From the NCBI RefSeq assembly GCF_021184025.1, contig NZ_CP036537.1, positions 1,488,001 through 1,552,000 on the forward strand: a stretch of 64,000 bases of DNA, written 5' to 3'. The notes beneath the pieces were generated by a model that was given only the letters and a program-made list of their open reading frames with translations, searched no databases and had not been told where the DNA came from. The translations under genes were made by a program, and so were the position numbers. Below are positions 16,222 to 64,000 of this stretch, one piece after another (position 1 is the stretch's first letter; every line of letters begins with the position of its first letter). Source of the stretch: Rhodopseudomonas boonkerdii. GTDB taxonomy: Bacteria; Pseudomonadota; Alphaproteobacteria; Rhizobiales; Xanthobacteraceae.

Positions 16222-17058
16222 TCAGGCAATCGCCGGTGCAGCTTCGGTGGCGGGTGCGGTCTGCACCTTCTTTGGCGGACCGGCGCGTAGCGCCGCCGTG
16301 GTCATCTGGCGCACGGCGTTCTCTGCATCGCGGGCGATTCGCTTGCGATCGGCGGATATGTCGTAGGCGACGGCTTCGCCCCAGGTGACGGTGACATCGA
16401 TGGCGCCGGAGGTCAGGATGCCGACCAGATGCGGGATGAGATCGACGTCGCCGTACCAGGCGATTCGCTGGTGCAGCGCGCGGCCGACCGGAAGGCCGCC
16501 AAAGCCGACATAAGCAAGGGACATCGGCTGCACCACGACCTCGTCGTGATGCATGGACTCGCCAAGCGCGTGATGCACGGAGCCGACCAGCGCCGAGCGG
16601 AACGGCAGCACGCGGATGCCGTCGCTCGACGTGCCTTCGGCGAACAGGACCACGGCATCACCGGAGACCATGCGGTCGCCGATCTCGCGCGCGGTGGCGC
16701 CGGTGCTCTGGCGGCGTTCGCGCTCGACGAAAATGGTACGTTGCATTCTGGCGAGCCAGCCGAACAGCGGCCACTTGGCAATCTCGCTCTTGGCGACGAA
16801 AACCACCGGCGTTTTCGCGCCGATGACAAGGATGTCGAGCCAGGAGGCGTGATTGGCGAGGATCAGCAGCGGGGCGGTCCTGCTGCGCTCGCCAACCTCG
16901 TGAATGCGGATGCCGATCACCGCGCAGAGCACGGTGTGGAAAATATGCGGGATGACCTGCTGCAGGCGCCAGCCAAAGGCAATGCTAATGAGCTGGAGCG
17001 GCGCCAGCAGCACGATCATCGTGAACATCGTGAGGGCGACGGCGACGAGACGGATCAT
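16222..17058 (-). CDS. plsC: 1-acyl-sn-glycerol-3-phosphate acyltransferase
   Basis: PlsC-type acyltransferase (278 residues) that makes phosphatidic acid from lysophosphatidic acid at the inner membrane. The acyltransferase motifs are in order: block I NHASWLD (HX4D), block II FVERERR, block III LFAEGTSSDG, and block IV with VVVQPMSLAYVG. An N-terminal hydrophobic segment (VAVALTMFTMIVLLAPLQLISIAF) anchors it. The C-terminal tail is Ala/Pro/Thr rich and likely flexible. It may be one of several PlsC paralogues in the genome and could instead belong to ornithine-lipid synthesis (OlsA-like), which the sequence alone does not exclude. Confidence 0.88.
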   Translation of the reverse strand: MIRLVAVALTMFTMIVLLAPLQLISIAFGWRLQQVIPHIFHTVLCAVIGIRIHEVGERSRTAPLLILANHASWLDILVIGAKTPVVFVAKSEIAKWPLFGWLARMQRTIFVERERRQSTGATAREIGDRMVSGDAVVLFAEGTSSDGIRVLPFRSALVGSVHHALGESMHHDEVVVQPMSLAYVGFGGLPVGRALHQRIAWYGDVDLIPHLVGILTSGAIDVTVTWGEAVAYDISADRKRIARDAENAVRQMTTAALRAGPPKKVQTAPATEAAPAIA

Positions 17059-17248
17059 GGACTGCTTATACCGGCGCTGGCTGCTTCAGGCAAAAAGAAG
17101 CGGTCCCGGTCAGCGCGGCAACTGACGGAGACCGCTGGGGAAGCAGCCCGTCGGCGACGGGGGGAAGCGACCGGCTGCGCGGAAAACCTAGCTGCAGCGG
17201 GTGACACCGCCATGACAGAGTTAACGATCCGCAGTCTGCAACTTGAGC

Positions 17249-44840: not shown

Positions 44841-45112
44841 GGATTGTCTCCTGAGAGGGGTGGGGACCACGCGCGGTGTTCTGAAGAGGTGCGATTACGA
44901 TGCCCTGACAGTTCCATGAAGGAGAGATGACAGCGGGGGAAATCCCTGCGACATGCGGTCGCCATGGCTACGGGTTGGCGACCGTTCGCGTCGGAGGCGC
45001 GCAGCTTGCTCTCGCTTGTTCCGGAGATACGACGGCGCAGTTCATGGATGCGCCGCCGTTCAAGTTCCTGGGATTGTGAGCGCAGATAGCCCGGATCGTG
45101 CGAAAACTCGCG

Positions 45113-55931: not shown

Positions 55932-56165
55932 TTACGGAGCGCCTGCCGCACCCGCTTGAACGGCATGGTTCACCAGCGCGCTGGTGTCGGTGATGCCATC
56001 GGCAGCGTGGCGGACGATGATCTGTGCCATCATGGCCTTGGTGGCTGGTGTGCGATGCTGTGCGGCAATCTGCTCCACGGCGATGTCCAGCGCCTGGCGC
56101 AACACGGCAACGCGCTGCGCGTCGAACGGCAGCGTATGCGATTGTGTCGTCGGGGTGGTCGTCAT
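55932..56165 (-). CDS. Small hypothetical protein
   Basis: From ATG 56165 (GGAG six bases upstream) the protein has 77 residues: MTTTPTTQSHTLPFDAQRVA..., with a helical middle (VLRQALDIAVEQIAAQHRTPATKAMMAQIIVRHAADG). It resembles small rhizobial orphans that may associate with stress or phosphate responses, but there is no diagnostic motif. A terminator-like structure lies about 140 bases downstream. Function unknown. Confidence 0.62.
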   Translation of the reverse strand: MTTTPTTQSHTLPFDAQRVAVLRQALDIAVEQIAAQHRTPATKAMMAQIIVRHAADGITDTSALVNHAVQAGAAGAP

Positions 56166-56567
56166 GATGCACTCCATAATCGTAGTGTGCAGCCTGTGTA
56201 GTGGCTGTTTAGGGCGCCTCTGAGTCAGCGTGATGAAAGGTGGATGACACGATCTGACATTGTGTTGATCGCCGCGGCTGAACGCGTCGAAATTGTGTGG
56301 CCCTGCGCTTCTCGAATGTTGGGAAACATGAAATGCGATGCATTTCTGTTTCGATGGTCGCTATGCATTCGGGAAAGATGCGCGTACAGCACGTCTATAG
56401 TCGAACGAAGGGTGGATCAGGTTCAACATTGCGCGCGGCCAGCACCGCATCTGTGCCATCGATGCGGCTTTCCGCGCAACCGCTGCACGTCTAGATGAAA
56501 GCGTGGTTTTGATTCGAAGTGGAGACGTTGTCTCCAGGCTCTCGGCCCGGTGTTGAGGCGATTTCTG
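56166..56567. other. 402-base gap with no supported gene
   Basis: Open frames in both directions lack protein-like composition and ribosome binding sites. The only notable structure is a perfect palindrome, GAAATGC-GAT-GCATTTC (56330-56346), which could be an operator. The region is more AT-rich than its surroundings and should hold the promoters of the leftward small gene and the rightward methyltransferase gene. Confidence 0.5.
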
Positions 56568-57782: not shown

Positions 57783-58484
57783 CTAGTCCTGAGTCAGCGC
57801 CACATGTTTGATGATGCGGAAAGGTGTCGTTGCGCTGTCCTGCCGGAACAATGCAATACTATCGATTGCCAATTCGTCAATGTCGAGTTCGGCGAAGCGG
57901 TGTTGCAGCAGCGTAAGCACCGCCGCGCCGCGTTCCTCAGTCAGGCGGCTGGTCAGTGTCATGTGGAAGCGAAAATCCTCGAACACATAGGGATAGCCCC
58001 AGGCGTCTAGATGCTCGATCTGGCGTGGCGTCAGCGCGTCCGGCTTGCGGCGGGCGCGATCCTCCGCGCTCATCGGAGCACGAAACGAGTCGAAATCGCG
58101 CACGCAGGCTTCGGCCAGCAATTGCAGATCGTCATCGGTTTCGTCCGGTACAATGGCTATAAAGCCGCTGATGGTGCGTATAACAGGCGCGACGATCGGA
58201 ATCTCGCGTGGCTTCGCGGCAAACTCTTCGATGGCAGCGAGCAGGTCTCTTTCGCTCTTGTTTCCGGCAAGCGGGAAGGGAGCTTTCAGAGTGCCGTGAA
58301 ACCCGTATTTGCGCGGATCGGCGGTGATGCTGGTCCAATCGGGAAACTCGGCGACGACGTTCTTGGGGTGGTCGATCTCGTGGCCGCTATAGGCGTCGTA
58401 ACCCAAAGTTTCGGCGCCGAACCGGGTCAGTGCGCGGTCGGCGTCGGGCGCGAAATAGATCGCATATCTCGGATATTCACTCAT
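57783..58484 (-). CDS. DUF1045 phosphonate-operon protein (2H phosphoesterase-like)
   Basis: A 233-residue protein of the DUF1045 family, found with phosphonate (phn) genes. It opens MSEYPRYAIYFAPDADRALT and carries two HxT motifs, His63-Gly-Thr65 (YGFHGTLKAPF) and His173-Met-Thr175 (FRFHMTLTSRL), the catalytic pattern of 2H phosphoesterases that act on cyclic phosphodiesters. This fits hydrolysis of the ribosyl 1,2-cyclic phosphate formed by C-P lyase, as suggested for relatives. It is 20 bases downstream of phnM and last in the leftward operon. Confidence 0.88.
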   Translation of the reverse strand: MSEYPRYAIYFAPDADRALTRFGAETLGYDAYSGHEIDHPKNVVAEFPDWTSITADPRKYGFHGTLKAPFPLAGNKSERDLLAAIEEFAAKPREIPIVAPVIRTISGFIAIVPDETDDDLQLLAEACVRDFDSFRAPMSAEDRARRKPDALTPRQIEHLDAWGYPYVFEDFRFHMTLTSRLTEERGAAVLTLLQHRFAELDIDELAIDSIALFRQDSATTPFRIIKHVALTQD

Positions 58485-58504: not shown

Positions 58505-59689
58505 TTACGCGGCGGCAATAGCCTTGTGCGGCATGGTTGTCGCAGGACGCAGTCGTCCGGCATCGGTGAGATGCGCGAGCTTGCCATCGGCTATGACTGC
58601 AACGATGCGCGGGCGCAGCGCCACGCTGTCGTCGATCAGCAGAATGTCCGCGCGGCGGCCGGTCGCGATTTCGCCGCGATCGGCGAGGCCGGCGGCCTGT
58701 GCCGGTGCTGCAGAAATCAGCGACCAGGCCTGCGGCAGGGCGAGAATGCCATCATGGGCAAGGCGGAAGGCTGCCAGTAATTGCGCAGGATAATAGTAAT
58801 CCGACGCCAGCACCGAGCACAGGCCCTTGGCGATCATGTCGGAAGCCTTGGTCCAGCCGGTATGGCTGCCCCCGCGCACCACATTCGGCGCACCATAGAC
58901 GATAAAGTCGCCGGCCTCTGCGGAAGCGATGGCGGTTTCCTCGTTGATCGGGAATTCCGCAATACGAACGCCGAGATCGCGGAATCCGGCGCGCATGGCG
59001 GGGCTGTTGTCATCATGCGATAGTGTCGCCACATCGTTCGCATTGGCAGCCTCGGCGAGCCGCCTGATCGAGGCTGGCACCTGATCGGCGCGGGACAGCA
59101 CGCGATCGACCAGCTGATCAAAAGCTGCAACGCTGAGGCCGGTGCGCTCGATCATCTTTGCGCGCTTCGCCGGCTTGGAAATGCCGGTGAGATCCATGTG
59201 ATCGTTGAAGGCGAGGAGGTCGATGCGGCCATCCTTCATCCAGCCGATGATCTCGTCCTCGGCGTCAAGATTGAAAGTTTCCTGCCGCAGGTGAAAGCGG
59301 GTATCTGCCGCAAGACGTGGGCGCAATGTCTCGATTGCCGACAGCAAGCCACGGGCGTTCTCGGCGCCACGCAGACCCGGCTCCCAGGACCAGGTGGTGC
59401 CGTGAAAGACGGTGGTGATGCCGTTGGCGATGGCCTGTCTGTCGCTGTCGATCAGCGCGACATCGACGGGAAAATCGACGCCGGGGCGCGGCATCAACTG
59501 GCGCTCGAACGCGTCGCCGTGGATATCGACGATACCCGGCATCACCAGCAGGTCGCGTGCGTCGATGCCGAGCGCACCATAGGCAGCGTTGCCGACATCC
59601 GCGATGCAGCCGCCCGAGATTGCGAGCGTGGTTTCGCCGATCTCCCGGCCGAGCAAGGTCCGTCCGCCTTCGATAGAAAGTTCAGTCAT
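58505..59689 (-). CDS. phnM: Alpha-D-ribose 1-methylphosphonate 5-triphosphate diphosphatase
   Basis: PhnM removes pyrophosphate from the triphosphate ester made by PhnI/G/H/L, giving the substrate of C-P lyase. It belongs to the amidohydrolase superfamily. The 394 residues have the metal-binding [18 protein letters not shown] (about 47-64), [56 protein letters not shown] and [19 protein letters not shown] near the C terminus. Its start overlaps the stop of the upstream transferase gene (ATGA), so the two are coupled. Confidence 0.93.
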
Positions 59690-60336
59690 GTCGCGTCCAT
59701 CTGCTGCGTCGCTTCGACGCCCTTATATTTGCTCAAGAACTCTTCCACCGACAAGGCACGAAAATCCGGCAGCGCCTGTCGCAAGGTTTCGTGGTCCCAG
59801 TCCCACCAGGCGAGATCCATCAATCCCTGTTCCACTCTTTCGGGGAAGCGGCGGCGGATGGGTCGCGCTGGATTGCCTGCGACGATCGTATAGGGCGGGA
59901 CATCCTTCGTGACGATGGCGCCCGCGGCGATGACCGCGCCGGTGCCCACCTGCCGACCTGGCAGCACGACAGCGCCATGGCCGATCCAGACGTCATGTCC
60001 GAGCGTGCAGTGGTGCTCGCGACGCCATGTGAAGAACGCCGCGTCGTCGGTCTCACCGGGGAAATAAGCGCTGGCGCGGTATGTAAAATGGGATTGCGAC
60101 GCGCGTTGCATCGGATGATTGCCGGGATTGATCCGGGTCAGCGATGCGATCGAGCAGAATTTGCCGATGGTCGCGTAAGCGATCTGGGACTCGTGCTCCA
60201 CATAAGAATAGTCGCTCATCGAGACTTCATGCAGCACGGTGCGCGCGCCTACTTCGTTATAGCGGCCGAACGTTACGTCCTTCAGTCTGGCGCTCGGCTC
60301 GATGACGGGATCGAGCGACAACATCTTTCCAACCAT
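59686..60336 (-). CDS. Phosphonate-cluster hexapeptide-repeat acetyltransferase
   Basis: A left-handed beta-helix transferase (about 216 residues) of the type found in phn operons. From the likely start ([10 protein letters not shown]) come hexapeptide repeats: [53 protein letters not shown], then the acyl-CoA region [50 protein letters not shown]. It probably acetylates an aminophosphonate before C-P cleavage, as PhnO-like proteins do. A longer frame to 60432 would cover the Pho-box-like site, so the short start is preferred. It overlaps phnM by four bases. Confidence 0.88.
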
Positions 60337-60383
60337 GACACATCCATGACTTGCTGCTTGCGGGCACGTCATCAGACCGTTTC

Positions 60384-60401
60384 GTGACAGCGAGGTGACG
60401 T
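60384..60401 (-). promoter_or_regulatory. Pho-box-like site for the leftward phn operon
   Basis: On the minus strand the site reads ACGTCACCTCGCTGTCAC, two GTCA half-repeats 11 bases apart, fitting the PhoB direct-repeat register (CTGTCAT repeated at 11 bp). It is 48 bases before the hexapeptide transferase start. The neighbouring + strand site differs at only two of eighteen positions. Confidence 0.7.
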
Positions 60402-60459
60402 GTGAATGAAATTTTGCATGCGTCGGCTGCAAGGCTGCGGGTTGGGCATTGTGACAGTG

Positions 60460-60477
60460 ACGTCACATCGCTGTCAT
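60460..60477 (+). promoter_or_regulatory. Pho-box-like site for phnCDE
   Basis: ACGTCACATCGCTGTCAT, with GTCA half-repeats 11 bases apart, 46 bases before phnC. It is the inverted near-copy of the site at 60384-60401. A further reverse-strand half-repeat, CTGTCAC, overlaps it (60451-60457). Binding by PhoB is inferred from consensus and gene context. Confidence 0.7.
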
Positions 60478-60522
60478 CCGCGAACGATAGGCGTGCAATG
60501 TTTGTTAACGCTGGAGTTACTC

Positions 60523-61338
60523 ATGCTTGCAGTCGAAGGCCTGACGTGCCGCTTCGGCGCCAAGGCGGCAGTCGATCATGCGAACTATACGATTGCGCCG
60601 GGTTCCTTTGTCGGCGTGATCGGGCGTTCCGGCGCCGGCAAGTCGACAATGCTGCGCATGATCAATCGTCTGGCCGAGCCGACATCCGGCCGCATCATCT
60701 TCGATGGCCTCGATGTGACGGCTCTCAAGGGCCGTGAGCTGCGCAAGTGGCGTGCACGGTCGGCGATGATCTTCCAGCAGTTCAACCTCGTCGGCCGTCT
60801 CGATGTGCTGACCAATGTTCTGATGGGCCGTCTGGCCGGCATGCCGCAATGGCGTTCGCTGATCCAGATGTGGCCCGAGCAGGATTGCGCGATGGCGATG
60901 TCTGCACTCGAACAGTTCGACATGGCACAGTATGCTTCGCAGCGCGCCGACCAGCTCTCGGGTGGTCAGCAGCAGCGCGTCGCCATTGCCCGCGCGCTGG
61001 TCCAGCAGCCCGACATCATCCTCGCCGACGAGCCGATTGCCTCGCTCGATCCGCGCAATACCCGCATCGTCATGGATGCGCTGCTGCGTATCAACAAGCA
61101 CTTCGGCATCACCGTCATGTGCAACCTGCATTCGCTCGACTTGGCTCGCGCTTATTGCGACCGCCTGATCGGCATGTCGGCCGGTCGTGTGGTGTTCGAC
61201 GGTGTGCCTGCCCAGCTTACCGAACATATCGCACGCGAACTCTACGATCTCGAAGCCGATGAGGTGATGGGATCGGCGCCGGTGCATGTACCGGCCGGTG
61301 CGCGTGTGCCGGAATACGGCGCGGCTGCCGTCGCCTGA
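60523..61338 (+). CDS. phnC: Phosphonate ABC transporter ATP-binding protein
   Basis: The ATPase of the phosphonate importer. From ATG 60523 (GGAG eight bases upstream) it has 271 residues: Walker [10 protein letters not shown] (about 34-42), Q-loop [13 protein letters not shown], the ABC signature [15 protein letters not shown], Walker [14 protein letters not shown] and the H-loop [26 protein letters not shown] is the typical start; the open frame extends further upstream into the promoter region, which is not coding. phnD and phnE follow, and a Pho-box-like site lies 46 bases upstream. Confidence 0.96.
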
Positions 61339-61455: not shown

Positions 61456-62394
61456 ATGATCAATCGTCGCTCCATCGTGCTCGGCGCCGCCGTGCTCGCC
61501 TTTGCTGCCGGTTCTGCCTCCGCGCAGGACTACAAGGCCAAGTATCCGGAATTGACCTTCGCCGTCGTGCCGGCCGAGAACGCCTCGGGCGTCACCGAGC
61601 GCTGGACGCCGTTCACCTCCTATCTTTCGAAGGAGCTGGGCGTGAAGGTCAATCTGCGTATCGCCAACGATTATGCCGCTGTCATCGAAGGCCAGCGGGC
61701 CGGCAACATCCATATCGCCAGCTACGGTTCGGCGTCGTTCGCCCGCGCCCGTCTCACCGGCGTGAAGACTGATGCTTTCGCCAACGACATCAATATCGAT
61801 GGTTCGACCGGCTATTACTCGGTGTTCTTCGTCAAGGCGTCGAGCCCCTACAAAACCGTGCAAGATCTGAAGGGCAAGAATCTCGGTCTCGTCGATCCGA
61901 ACTCGACCTCGGGCAATAACGTGCCGCGCTTCGAGCTCGACAAGATGGGCATCCACGACGCCGACGCTTTCTTCAGCAAAGTCGTGTTCACGGGCAGCCA
62001 CGAAAACGCGATGCTCGCGCTGTCCCAGGGCACCGTCGATATCGCCGCCAACCAGTGGACCAATGACGCGGATTCCACTCTGCAGCAGATGCTCCACAAG
62101 GGCATGCTGAAGAATGCCGACGGCTCGGCGATGAAGAAGGACGACTTCCGCATCATCCATAAGTCGGCTGCGATCATCAATGGCCCTTATGCTTACGGTT
62201 CGGACCTACCCGATGATCTGAAAGCCGCGATCCGCAAGGCGTTCGACGAAGCTCCGATCAAGGACAAGGCTGCGTTTGACAAGCTCTCGGACGGTCAGAA
62301 GAAAGGCTTCCATCCCGCCACCACCAAGGATTGGGATGCGACCATCGAGCTGATCAAGTTCGTCGACGCCCTGCGCAAGAAGAAGGCGTCGTAA
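61456..62394 (+). CDS. phnD: Phosphonate ABC transporter substrate-binding protein
   Basis: A 312-residue periplasmic protein that captures phosphonates (such as 2-aminoethylphosphonate) for PhnCE. The signal peptide is MINRRSIVLGAAVLAFAAGS, cleaved near ASA-QD. The mature part matches PhnD: LTFAVVPAENASGVTERWTPFTSYLSKELG, VIEGQRAGNIHIASYGSASFARA, YYSVFFVKASSPYKTVQDLKGKNLGLVDPNSTSGNNVPRFEL and HENAMLALSQGTVDIAANQ. It sits between phnC and phnE, with hairpins on both sides, a setup that usually lets the binding protein be made in excess. Confidence 0.96.
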   Translation: MINRRSIVLGAAVLAFAAGSASAQDYKAKYPELTFAVVPAENASGVTERWTPFTSYLSKELGVKVNLRIANDYAAVIEGQRAGNIHIASYGSASFARARLTGVKTDAFANDINIDGSTGYYSVFFVKASSPYKTVQDLKGKNLGLVDPNSTSGNNVPRFELDKMGIHDADAFFSKVVFTGSHENAMLALSQGTVDIAANQWTNDADSTLQQMLHKGMLKNADGSAMKKDDFRIIHKSAAIINGPYAYGSDLPDDLKAAIRKAFDEAPIKDKAAFDKLSDGQKKGFHPATTKDWDATIELIKFVDALRKKKAS

Positions 62395-62466: not shown

Positions 62467-63351
62467 ATGCCCGCCGCAGTCTCCATATTGCCGAGTCAGC
62501 AGCTCGCTGCGTTGAACGCCGCCTATCGCAAGGCCGTGTCGCGCCGGCGGCTCCGCACGCTGTTGTCGGTCGCGACCTGTGCCGTCGTGCTGTTCGTGGC
62601 AGCCGTCGGCGCCGAGGTGAACGTCACAACATTCCTCGCGAAGATCGGCAACTTTTTCAGCTATTTCGATCGCATCTTCACGCTCGATAGCGGCGTGCGG
62701 GTCTGGAACGATATTGCCGAATGGTTCTGGGGCTGGGACAAGTGGCTGAAGCTGCTTGGTGAAACCGTATTGATCAGCTATGTCGGCACGGTCGTTGGCG
62801 CGTTGCTGGCCTTCTGTCTGAATTTCCTCGCTGCCGAAAACACCGCGCCGTCGCGCTGGCTGCGGTTTGTCGTCAAGCGCTTCATGGAATTCTGTCGCAC
62901 GGTGCCGGACATCGTCTTCGCGCTGATCTTCGTCATCGCCTTTGGGCTCGGCCCCATGGCCGGAGTGCTCGCCATCGCCATTCATTGCGTCGGTGCGCTC
63001 GGCAAGCTGTATGGCGAGATCGTCGAGAATATCGATATGAAGCCGGTGGAGGGCATTCGCTCCACGGGCGCAAGCTGGATGAGCTGTATGCGTTTCGCGG
63101 TACTGCCGCAGGTGACCGCGGGGTTCGCCAGCTACACGCTGTTGCGTTTCGAGATCAATGTGCGTGGTGCTTCGGTTATGGGCTTTGTCGGTGCCGGCGG
63201 TATCGGACAGGAGCTCGTGGTCGCCGTCCGAAAGTTTTACTATTCCGACGTCAGCGCCATCCTGCTGATGATCATCGTCACCGTCTTCGTCATTGACATC
63301 GCCACCGGCTGGCTGCGTGGTCGACTTTTCGGCAAGGAAGCACGGTCGTGA
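62467..63351 (+). CDS. phnE: Phosphonate ABC transporter permease (first)
   Basis: A 294-residue inner-membrane permease with about six helices. It shows a PhnE N terminus (AAYRKAVSRRRLRTLLSVATCAVVLFVAAVG), KLLGETVLISYVGTVVGALLAFCLNFLAAENTAPS, MEFCRTVPDIVFALIFVIAFGLGPMAGVLAIAIH, and the EAA loop VEGIRSTGASWMSCMRFAVLPQ that docks with PhnC. It ends RGRLFGKEARS. Its TGA stop overlaps the GTG start of a second permease gene (63348), so the two PhnE proteins form a heterodimeric channel. Confidence 0.94.
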   Translation: MPAAVSILPSQQLAALNAAYRKAVSRRRLRTLLSVATCAVVLFVAAVGAEVNVTTFLAKIGNFFSYFDRIFTLDSGVRVWNDIAEWFWGWDKWLKLLGETVLISYVGTVVGALLAFCLNFLAAENTAPSRWLRFVVKRFMEFCRTVPDIVFALIFVIAFGLGPMAGVLAIAIHCVGALGKLYGEIVENIDMKPVEGIRSTGASWMSCMRFAVLPQVTAGFASYTLLRFEINVRGASVMGFVGAGGIGQELVVAVRKFYYSDVSAILLMIIVTVFVIDIATGWLRGRLFGKEARS

Positions 63352-64000
63352 ACAAGCCATCTGACATCGATACCGATGAGCTGCGCGGTCGCTATCCCGG
63401 AGTCTTCGATCGCTCGCTGAAATCCCGCGCGGCGGCGCCGACCATTCTCGTCGCGGCGTTGGCGCTGCTGATCTTGGGTCTCAATGAACTCGATTTCTCG
63501 CCCGGCCGGATGCTGCATGGTCTGCAGCAGCTCGGTTGGATCACCATGATGATGATCCCGCCAGATCCGGGCTCGTCGCTCCCGGCCTATCTACAGGCGA
63601 TGGGCGAGACGCTGTCGATCGCTGTACTCGGCACCACGCTGGCTGCACTGCTGGCACTGCCAGTGAGTTTGCTTGCTGCACGCAATGTCATTCCGTCAGC
63701 GTGGCTGCGTTTTCCGGTGCGTCGTTCGCTCGACACGATCCGTGGCATCGATACGCTGATCTGGGCGCTGGTCTGGATCAACGTGGTCGGCCTCGGCCCA
63801 TTCGCTGGCGTGCTCGCCATCGCGGTGTCGGATTTCGGCGCTTTCGGAAAATTGTTTTCCGAAGCCATCGAAGGGGCGGACAAGAAGCAGGTTGAGGGCA
63901 TTCGTGCTTCCGGCGGCAGCCCTCTGCATGAAATCCGCTTCGGCCTGATGCCACAGGTACTGCCTGTCATCGCCGGGCAGGTGCTGTATTTTATCGAATC
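63348..64000 (+). CDS. phnE: Phosphonate ABC transporter permease (second, partial)
   Basis: The frame starts at GTG 63348 with AAGGAAG eight bases upstream and runs without a stop to the window end. The translation is of PhnE type: an N-terminal segment (MNKPSDIDTDELRGRYPGVF), TILVAALALLILGLNELDFS, a second helix region with LGTTLAALLALPVSLLAARN, GIDTLIWALVWINVVGLGPF and the EAA loop VEGIRASGGSPLHEIRFGLM. The remaining C-terminal helices and any further phn genes are outside the window. It is coupled to the first phnE by a four-base overlap. Confidence 0.9.
   Translation, partial: MNKPSDIDTDELRGRYPGVFDRSLKSRAAAPTILVAALALLILGLNELDFSPGRMLHGLQQLGWITMMMIPPDPGSSLPAYLQAMGETLSIAVLGTTLAALLALPVSLLAARNVIPSAWLRFPVRRSLDTIRGIDTLIWALVWINVVGLGPFAGVLAIAVSDFGAFGKLFSEAIEGADKKQVEGIRASGGSPLHEIRFGLMPQVLPVIAGQVLYFIE

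Follow-up and report, generated by a model that had tools for sequence, protein, structure and literature searches.

The window, that is, the whole stretch of 64,000 nucleotides analysed here, contains two divergent sets of phosphonate genes (Table 1) separated by an intergenic region of 186 bp (60337-60522). This region lies between the ATG of the hexapeptide-repeat transferase gene, with its A at 60336 on the minus strand, and the start of phnC at 60523 on the plus strand. The second phnE-type gene scored below its family cut-off because the edge of the window cuts it, and the next long ORF past it that was taken as a gene runs the opposite way and is GST-like by eye. The genes phnG and phnH (both confirmed by family models) and phnJ form a separate operon, with phnJ at C1:1318964, about 230 kb from the site studied here. 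Two phnM-type genes of different NCBIfam subgroups were observed, one in the phnG-phnH-phnJ cluster and one in the window.

Table 1. Genes and predicted regulatory elements of the phosphonate locus (positions are those of the window, except for the last line)
Feature	Position	Strand	Remarks
Putative phosphonate metabolism protein	57783-58484	minus	TIGR03223
phnM-type diphosphatase	58505-59689	minus	NF011985, 672 bits; just below TIGR02318 cut-off
Hexapeptide-repeat transferase of phosphonate loci	59686-60336	minus	TIGR03308 (NCBIfam)
-10-like element GATGAC	60368-60373	minus	10 nt past left array; putative role
Left Pho array (putative)	60384-60412	minus	three half-sites at 11-bp spacing, facing transferase
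Left half-site CTGTCAC	60384-60390	minus
Left half-site ACGTCAC	60395-60401	minus
Left half-site ATTTCAT	60406-60412	minus
Possible third right half-site TTGTGAC	60449-60455	plus	weak; in 11-bp register
Right Pho box (putative)	60460-60477	plus	two half-sites, facing phnC
Right half-site ACGTCAC	60460-60466	plus
Right half-site CTGTCAT	60471-60477	plus
-10-like element TAGGCG	60488-60493	plus	10 nt past right box; putative role
phnC, phosphonate ABC transporter ATP-binding protein	60523-61338	plus	TIGR02315
phnD, substrate-binding protein	61456-62394	plus	TIGR03431
phnE, permease	62467-63351	plus	TIGR01097
Second phnE-type permease	63348-63998	plus	below TIGR01097 cut-off; complete ORF of 282 aa in L155
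phnM of phnG-phnH-phnJ cluster	G000:C1:6847-8001 of L176		NF011983, 592 bits

Two 18-mers were found in the intergenic region, namely ACGTCACCTCGCTGTCAC at 60384-60401 on the minus strand, facing the transferase, and ACGTCACATCGCTGTCAT at 60460-60477 on the plus strand, facing phnC. A preliminary description had presented them as two nearly identical PhoB boxes in inverted orientation. Direct checking of the letters bears out its coordinates, its strands and the match at 16 of 18 positions, whereas the spacers to the start codons, given as 48 and 46 bp, are both off by one, being 47 bp (60337-60383) and 45 bp (60478-60522). Apart from these two places, the 5.63-Mb genome contains no exact match to the pattern shared by the two sites, ACGTCACNTCGCTGTCAY. 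The next-best matches have 2 mismatches, and with up to 3 mismatches there are 57 matches genome-wide against 26 for the reversed control pattern. The left 18-mer makes up two thirds of a longer array overlooked in the preliminary description (ATTTCAT-TCAC-ACGTCAC-CTCG-CTGTCAC), which ranks 2 among the 127,944 three-unit arrays of the window.

Both sites fit the definition of a Pho box, long known as 11-nt direct repeats with two 7-nt repeats 4 nt apart (PMC4415409, in an excerpt). The identity of their half-sites to CTGTCAT is 5/7, 4/7 and 6/7 on the left and 4/7 and 7/7 on the right. They were scored with a matrix whose training set consisted solely of pstS promoters from the same family. 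Among 30 pstS loci, 15 had an upstream 18-mer with at least 11 of the 14 consensus letters and the other 15 had none and hence are outside the matrix; with the window's own site left out, 14 sites remained. As the training sites were chosen through the consensus, the matrix is biased towards it. Neither site scored below background: the right one reached 15.0 bits (rank 4) and the left one 11.9 bits (rank 9) among the 127,966 18-mers of the window on both strands. Against a third-order Markov background, 0.016 sites equal to or better than the left one and 0.0024 for the right one are expected by chance in 186 bp. Genome-wide the corresponding expectations are about 530 and about 80, and because of the former the left 18-mer by itself is weak evidence. 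A further minus-strand 18-mer resembling a Pho box (60335-60352, 13.2 bits) overlaps the transferase start codon and was taken as a chance match; by eye, this stretch is present elsewhere only in L039, the nearest relative, among the intergenic regions listed from the best 80 of at least 589 relatives' loci.

The conservation of the region was assessed in relatives of the transferase, of which at least 589 were confirmed and the best 80 loci fetched. A divergent adjoining phnC is present in 63 of these, giving 64 intergenic regions together with the window. Among the 17 loci left out, L089, L093 and L114 had no phnC match and ten had only matches below 50% identity. In the other four (L108, L109, L113 and L116, from Microvirga and Methylobacterium) both genes lie on one strand, phnC following the transferase; a divergent arrangement is thus not universal. 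A search within the genus found phnC in 17 of 18 genomes; L161, without a transferase match, was left out of the counts. The two sets overlap, since L039/L158, L040/L168 and L041/L170 share boxes and spacings. For the right-box table L099 was left out and rows more than 80% alike were thinned.

On the minus strand the best score was at least 12 bits in 61 of the 64 intergenic regions, with 0.5 expected per strand. Exact GTCA cores at 11 bp were found there as a series of three in 50/64 and of two in 59/64 (0.0 and 0.17 in shuffles). The core-to-core distances on this strand, taken from 39 non-redundant intergenic regions, were 11 bp in 62 cases and 22 bp in 31, with all others occurring at most twice each. 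The plus strand reached 12 bits in 22/64, against 0.5 expected, 21 of these on the side of phnC and one (L049) at another position. The lower scores of the right box in the remaining 42 can be explained by the fact that many relatives lack two full CTGTCAT units there and instead have TGTCACACAA[CG]TGT with AA, TAA or CAA after it. The simpler pattern GTCA-N6-TGT was present on the plus strand in 58 of the 64 regions (0.59 in shuffles). The predicted box pair is therefore found again in most of the 63 relatives with divergent genes, drawn from the best 80 of at least 589. To judge from these alignments, what is new here is a conserved layout of 3+2 half-sites in relatives from Bradyrhizobium, Tardiphaga and Rhodopseudomonas. 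The proposal that the transferase starts downstream of its site is also consistent with the relatives, 54 of 63 of which have ATG as the codon aligned with residue 1.

Between the boxes lies a GC-rich stretch (60413-60459), with a core like GATCGCCGCACNGCAGCG in Bradyrhizobium-type loci. Its conservation at -30 to -4 relative to the right box reaches 0.86 bits per column, compared with at most 0.34 in the preceding stretch, and may be explained by shared ancestry. No regulon for this block was seen with a 23-nt pattern in three genomes (17 matches, with 6 for the reversed control). Both exact matches fit the phn place, by coordinates in the L064 genome and by position within the contig in L065. 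The remaining matches comprise the phn place of L051 with 3 mismatches, one other with 2 and the rest with 3.

The distance from the boxes to a downstream element is also conserved. Past the right box, a T at 10 nt and an A at 11 nt, within TAGCG, are each present in 36 of 37 thinned rows, and the TA is found in all 17 same-genus rows. On the left, GA[AT]GA comes 10 nt past the array; among 44 rows its G is conserved in 37, its A in 39 and its second G in 41. Neither element resembles TATAAT, and TA is lacking from the left one; we infer that they could act as -10 boxes. In this genome a TA at 10 nt also follows the candidate boxes upstream of phnG, a methyltransferase/phosphoesterase pair and the acyltransferase gene starting at 17058. 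It is absent at this distance from the candidate Pho sites before ppk, before a phytase-like gene and at 56233, and in the pstS promoter it stands 21 nt, not 10 nt, past the last clear half-site. A strict spacing of Pho boxes to the core promoter is described in an excerpt of PMC10294691.

One PhoB above the model cut-off is encoded at C1:647634 (TIGR02154, 356.4 bits against a cut-off of 296.2), and for its DNA-binding domain an alignment over 94 residues, at about 1e-30, was obtained with E. coli PhoB (structures 3t72, 1qqi and 1gxp). The pstS gene lies near phoB, at 643084, and the pstS promoters of this genome and of the family carry tandem half-sites at 11 bp, often three. The phnG-phnH-phnJ operon has an array of its own (AAATCAT, CTGTCAC and CGGTCAT at 1316687-1316715), which ends about 56 bp before the phnG frame as scanned from an internal ATG. 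A canonical box with 1 mismatch precedes ppk. The presence of phn genes on both sides, together with PhoB, PstS and further Pho boxes in the genome, fits the assignment made in the preliminary description. Moreover, the matrix scores, the conserved 11-bp repeat and the fixed distance to the downstream element support it, and both 18-mers are very probably PhoB boxes.

Other Pho-like sites were observed in the genome. The best three-unit array of the window belongs to a run of four half-site-like units at 11 bp (CTGTCAT-CCTTCAT-CTGTCAG-TCGTAAT, 44894-44933 minus) immediately before a phytase-like gene (PF13449, 43485-44870 minus), which is likely a further member of the Pho regulon. An acyltransferase gene (PF01553, 16222-17058 minus) is preceded at about 140 bp by a strong box, CTGTCATGGCGGTGTCAC (17201-17218 minus, 18.6 bits), which has TAGGTT 10 nt past it, and a role in phosphate-starvation lipid remodelling is possible. 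Another strong box, GTGTCATCCACCTTTCAT (56233-56250 minus, 19.4 bits), precedes a possible short minus-strand frame starting near 56165. The only perfect CTGTCATN4CTGTCAT of the genome (L001:1501-1518, i.e. G000:C1:3820111-3820128) precedes, by about 140 bp, a large minus-strand ORF, PAS/GGDEF-like by eye.

We read the region 60337-60522, with a probability of about 0.88, as two back-to-back PhoB-activated promoters whose boxes match at 16 of 18 positions by chance; binding, induction, transcription starts and operon extent are here predictions from the DNA. When phosphate is exhausted, phosphorylated PhoB would bind the half-sites of each box in head-to-tail fashion. Each box would stand in for a -35 element, and PhoB would recruit RNA polymerase to the -10 element located 10 nt downstream. 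In this way the left array, with its three half-sites, would drive the transferase, phnM and TIGR03223 genes, and the right box, with two, would drive phnCDEE.

The preliminary description had proposed a symmetric and duplicated switch, that is, a pair of boxes whose likeness is maintained to give both operons an equal response. The 16/18 identity in this genome speaks for such a pair, as does the fact that the boxes are the sole two exact genome matches of their shared pattern, but the copies are not alike in relatives. Left-right identity is 9-13/18 in the 16 same-genus loci other than the window and 11/18 in L039, the nearest relative among the best 80 of at least 589. Over the 64 loci it averages 9.61/18 within genomes against 9.47/18 between genomes, and one of the 3,969 left-right pairs without the window reaches 16/18. 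The duplication is therefore not borne out, and neither is the symmetry, as three half-sites are conserved on the left and two on the right (plus the weak third one in this subclade). Because among the loci compared the near-identity occurs only in this genome, it appears to be a coincidence of two sites of the same type, best read as chance convergence and not as a maintained duplication; a pair kept alike for an equal response is highly improbable. That the asymmetry of three against two half-sites is a dose or timing programme, with the GC-rich block between the boxes as a second input, is doubtful; if it were so, the two operons would switch on at different levels of PhoB-phosphate as phosphate falls.

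The boxes might instead belong to another regulator of the OmpR/PhoB family with a similar half-site, given that DNA-binding domains are alike across this family and that the PhoB model finds 54 regions in the genome, mostly weaker response regulators. Nevertheless the half-site is the same as that upstream of pstS, in this genome and in the family, phosphonate genes flank both sides, and arrays are also found before phnG and ppk, all of which makes this explanation very unlikely. The right site could also be seen as part of the inverted repeat TGTGAC-N6-GTCACA (60450-60467), recognised by a dimeric regulator of the CRP type. CRP sites have the form TGTGA-N6-TCACA, the spacing of which differs from that of the repeat found here. 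The repeat is present in the sequence and TTGTGAC, the possible third half-site, is kept at its place in 4 of 17 same-genus rows, yet the other 13 lack the outer arm, and all 17 retain the direct repeat. As its outer arm is not kept in the genus, the CRP-type site was rejected as extremely improbable, and PhoB-activated promoters remain the preferred reading.

Control of phn genes by PhoB is already known. In E. coli, PhoB binds upstream of phnC and activates the operon (PMC10294691; PMC10574752), and the excerpt of the former states that this site is conserved in few of the species compared. The E. coli phnCDEFGHIJKLMNOP operon has, as here, a direct-repeat box before phnC, but it is one long operon, whereas here the transporter and transferase-phnM sets are divergent and phnG-phnH-phnJ is about 230 kb away. 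For the alphaproteobacterium Caulobacter crescentus, phnC is stated to be a direct PhoB target (PMC10294691), and in Sinorhizobium meliloti phoCDET, phnNM and pst are given as Pho-regulon or phosphate-stress genes (PMC3596328; PMC8829014). In the excerpts concerned, the likeness lies in phnC as a PhoB target and in phn genes as part of a rhizobial Pho regulon, respectively, the comparison covering genes. The genome's own pstS promoter shares the 11-bp tandem half-sites and differs in having one direction and its TA at 21 nt. No account of such a divergent promoter in Bradyrhizobium or Tardiphaga came up in a full-text search, judged by titles and abstract openings and mostly confined to papers outside subscription.

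For judging such sites, the conserved 11-bp register of the half-sites is the evidence, not the likeness of two sites within one genome. A link between half-site number and induction threshold is a testable prediction. As far as the sequence can indicate, these findings support the view that PhoB controls both sets of phosphonate genes in a soil bacterium, which is ordinary regulation kept in related soil bacteria.
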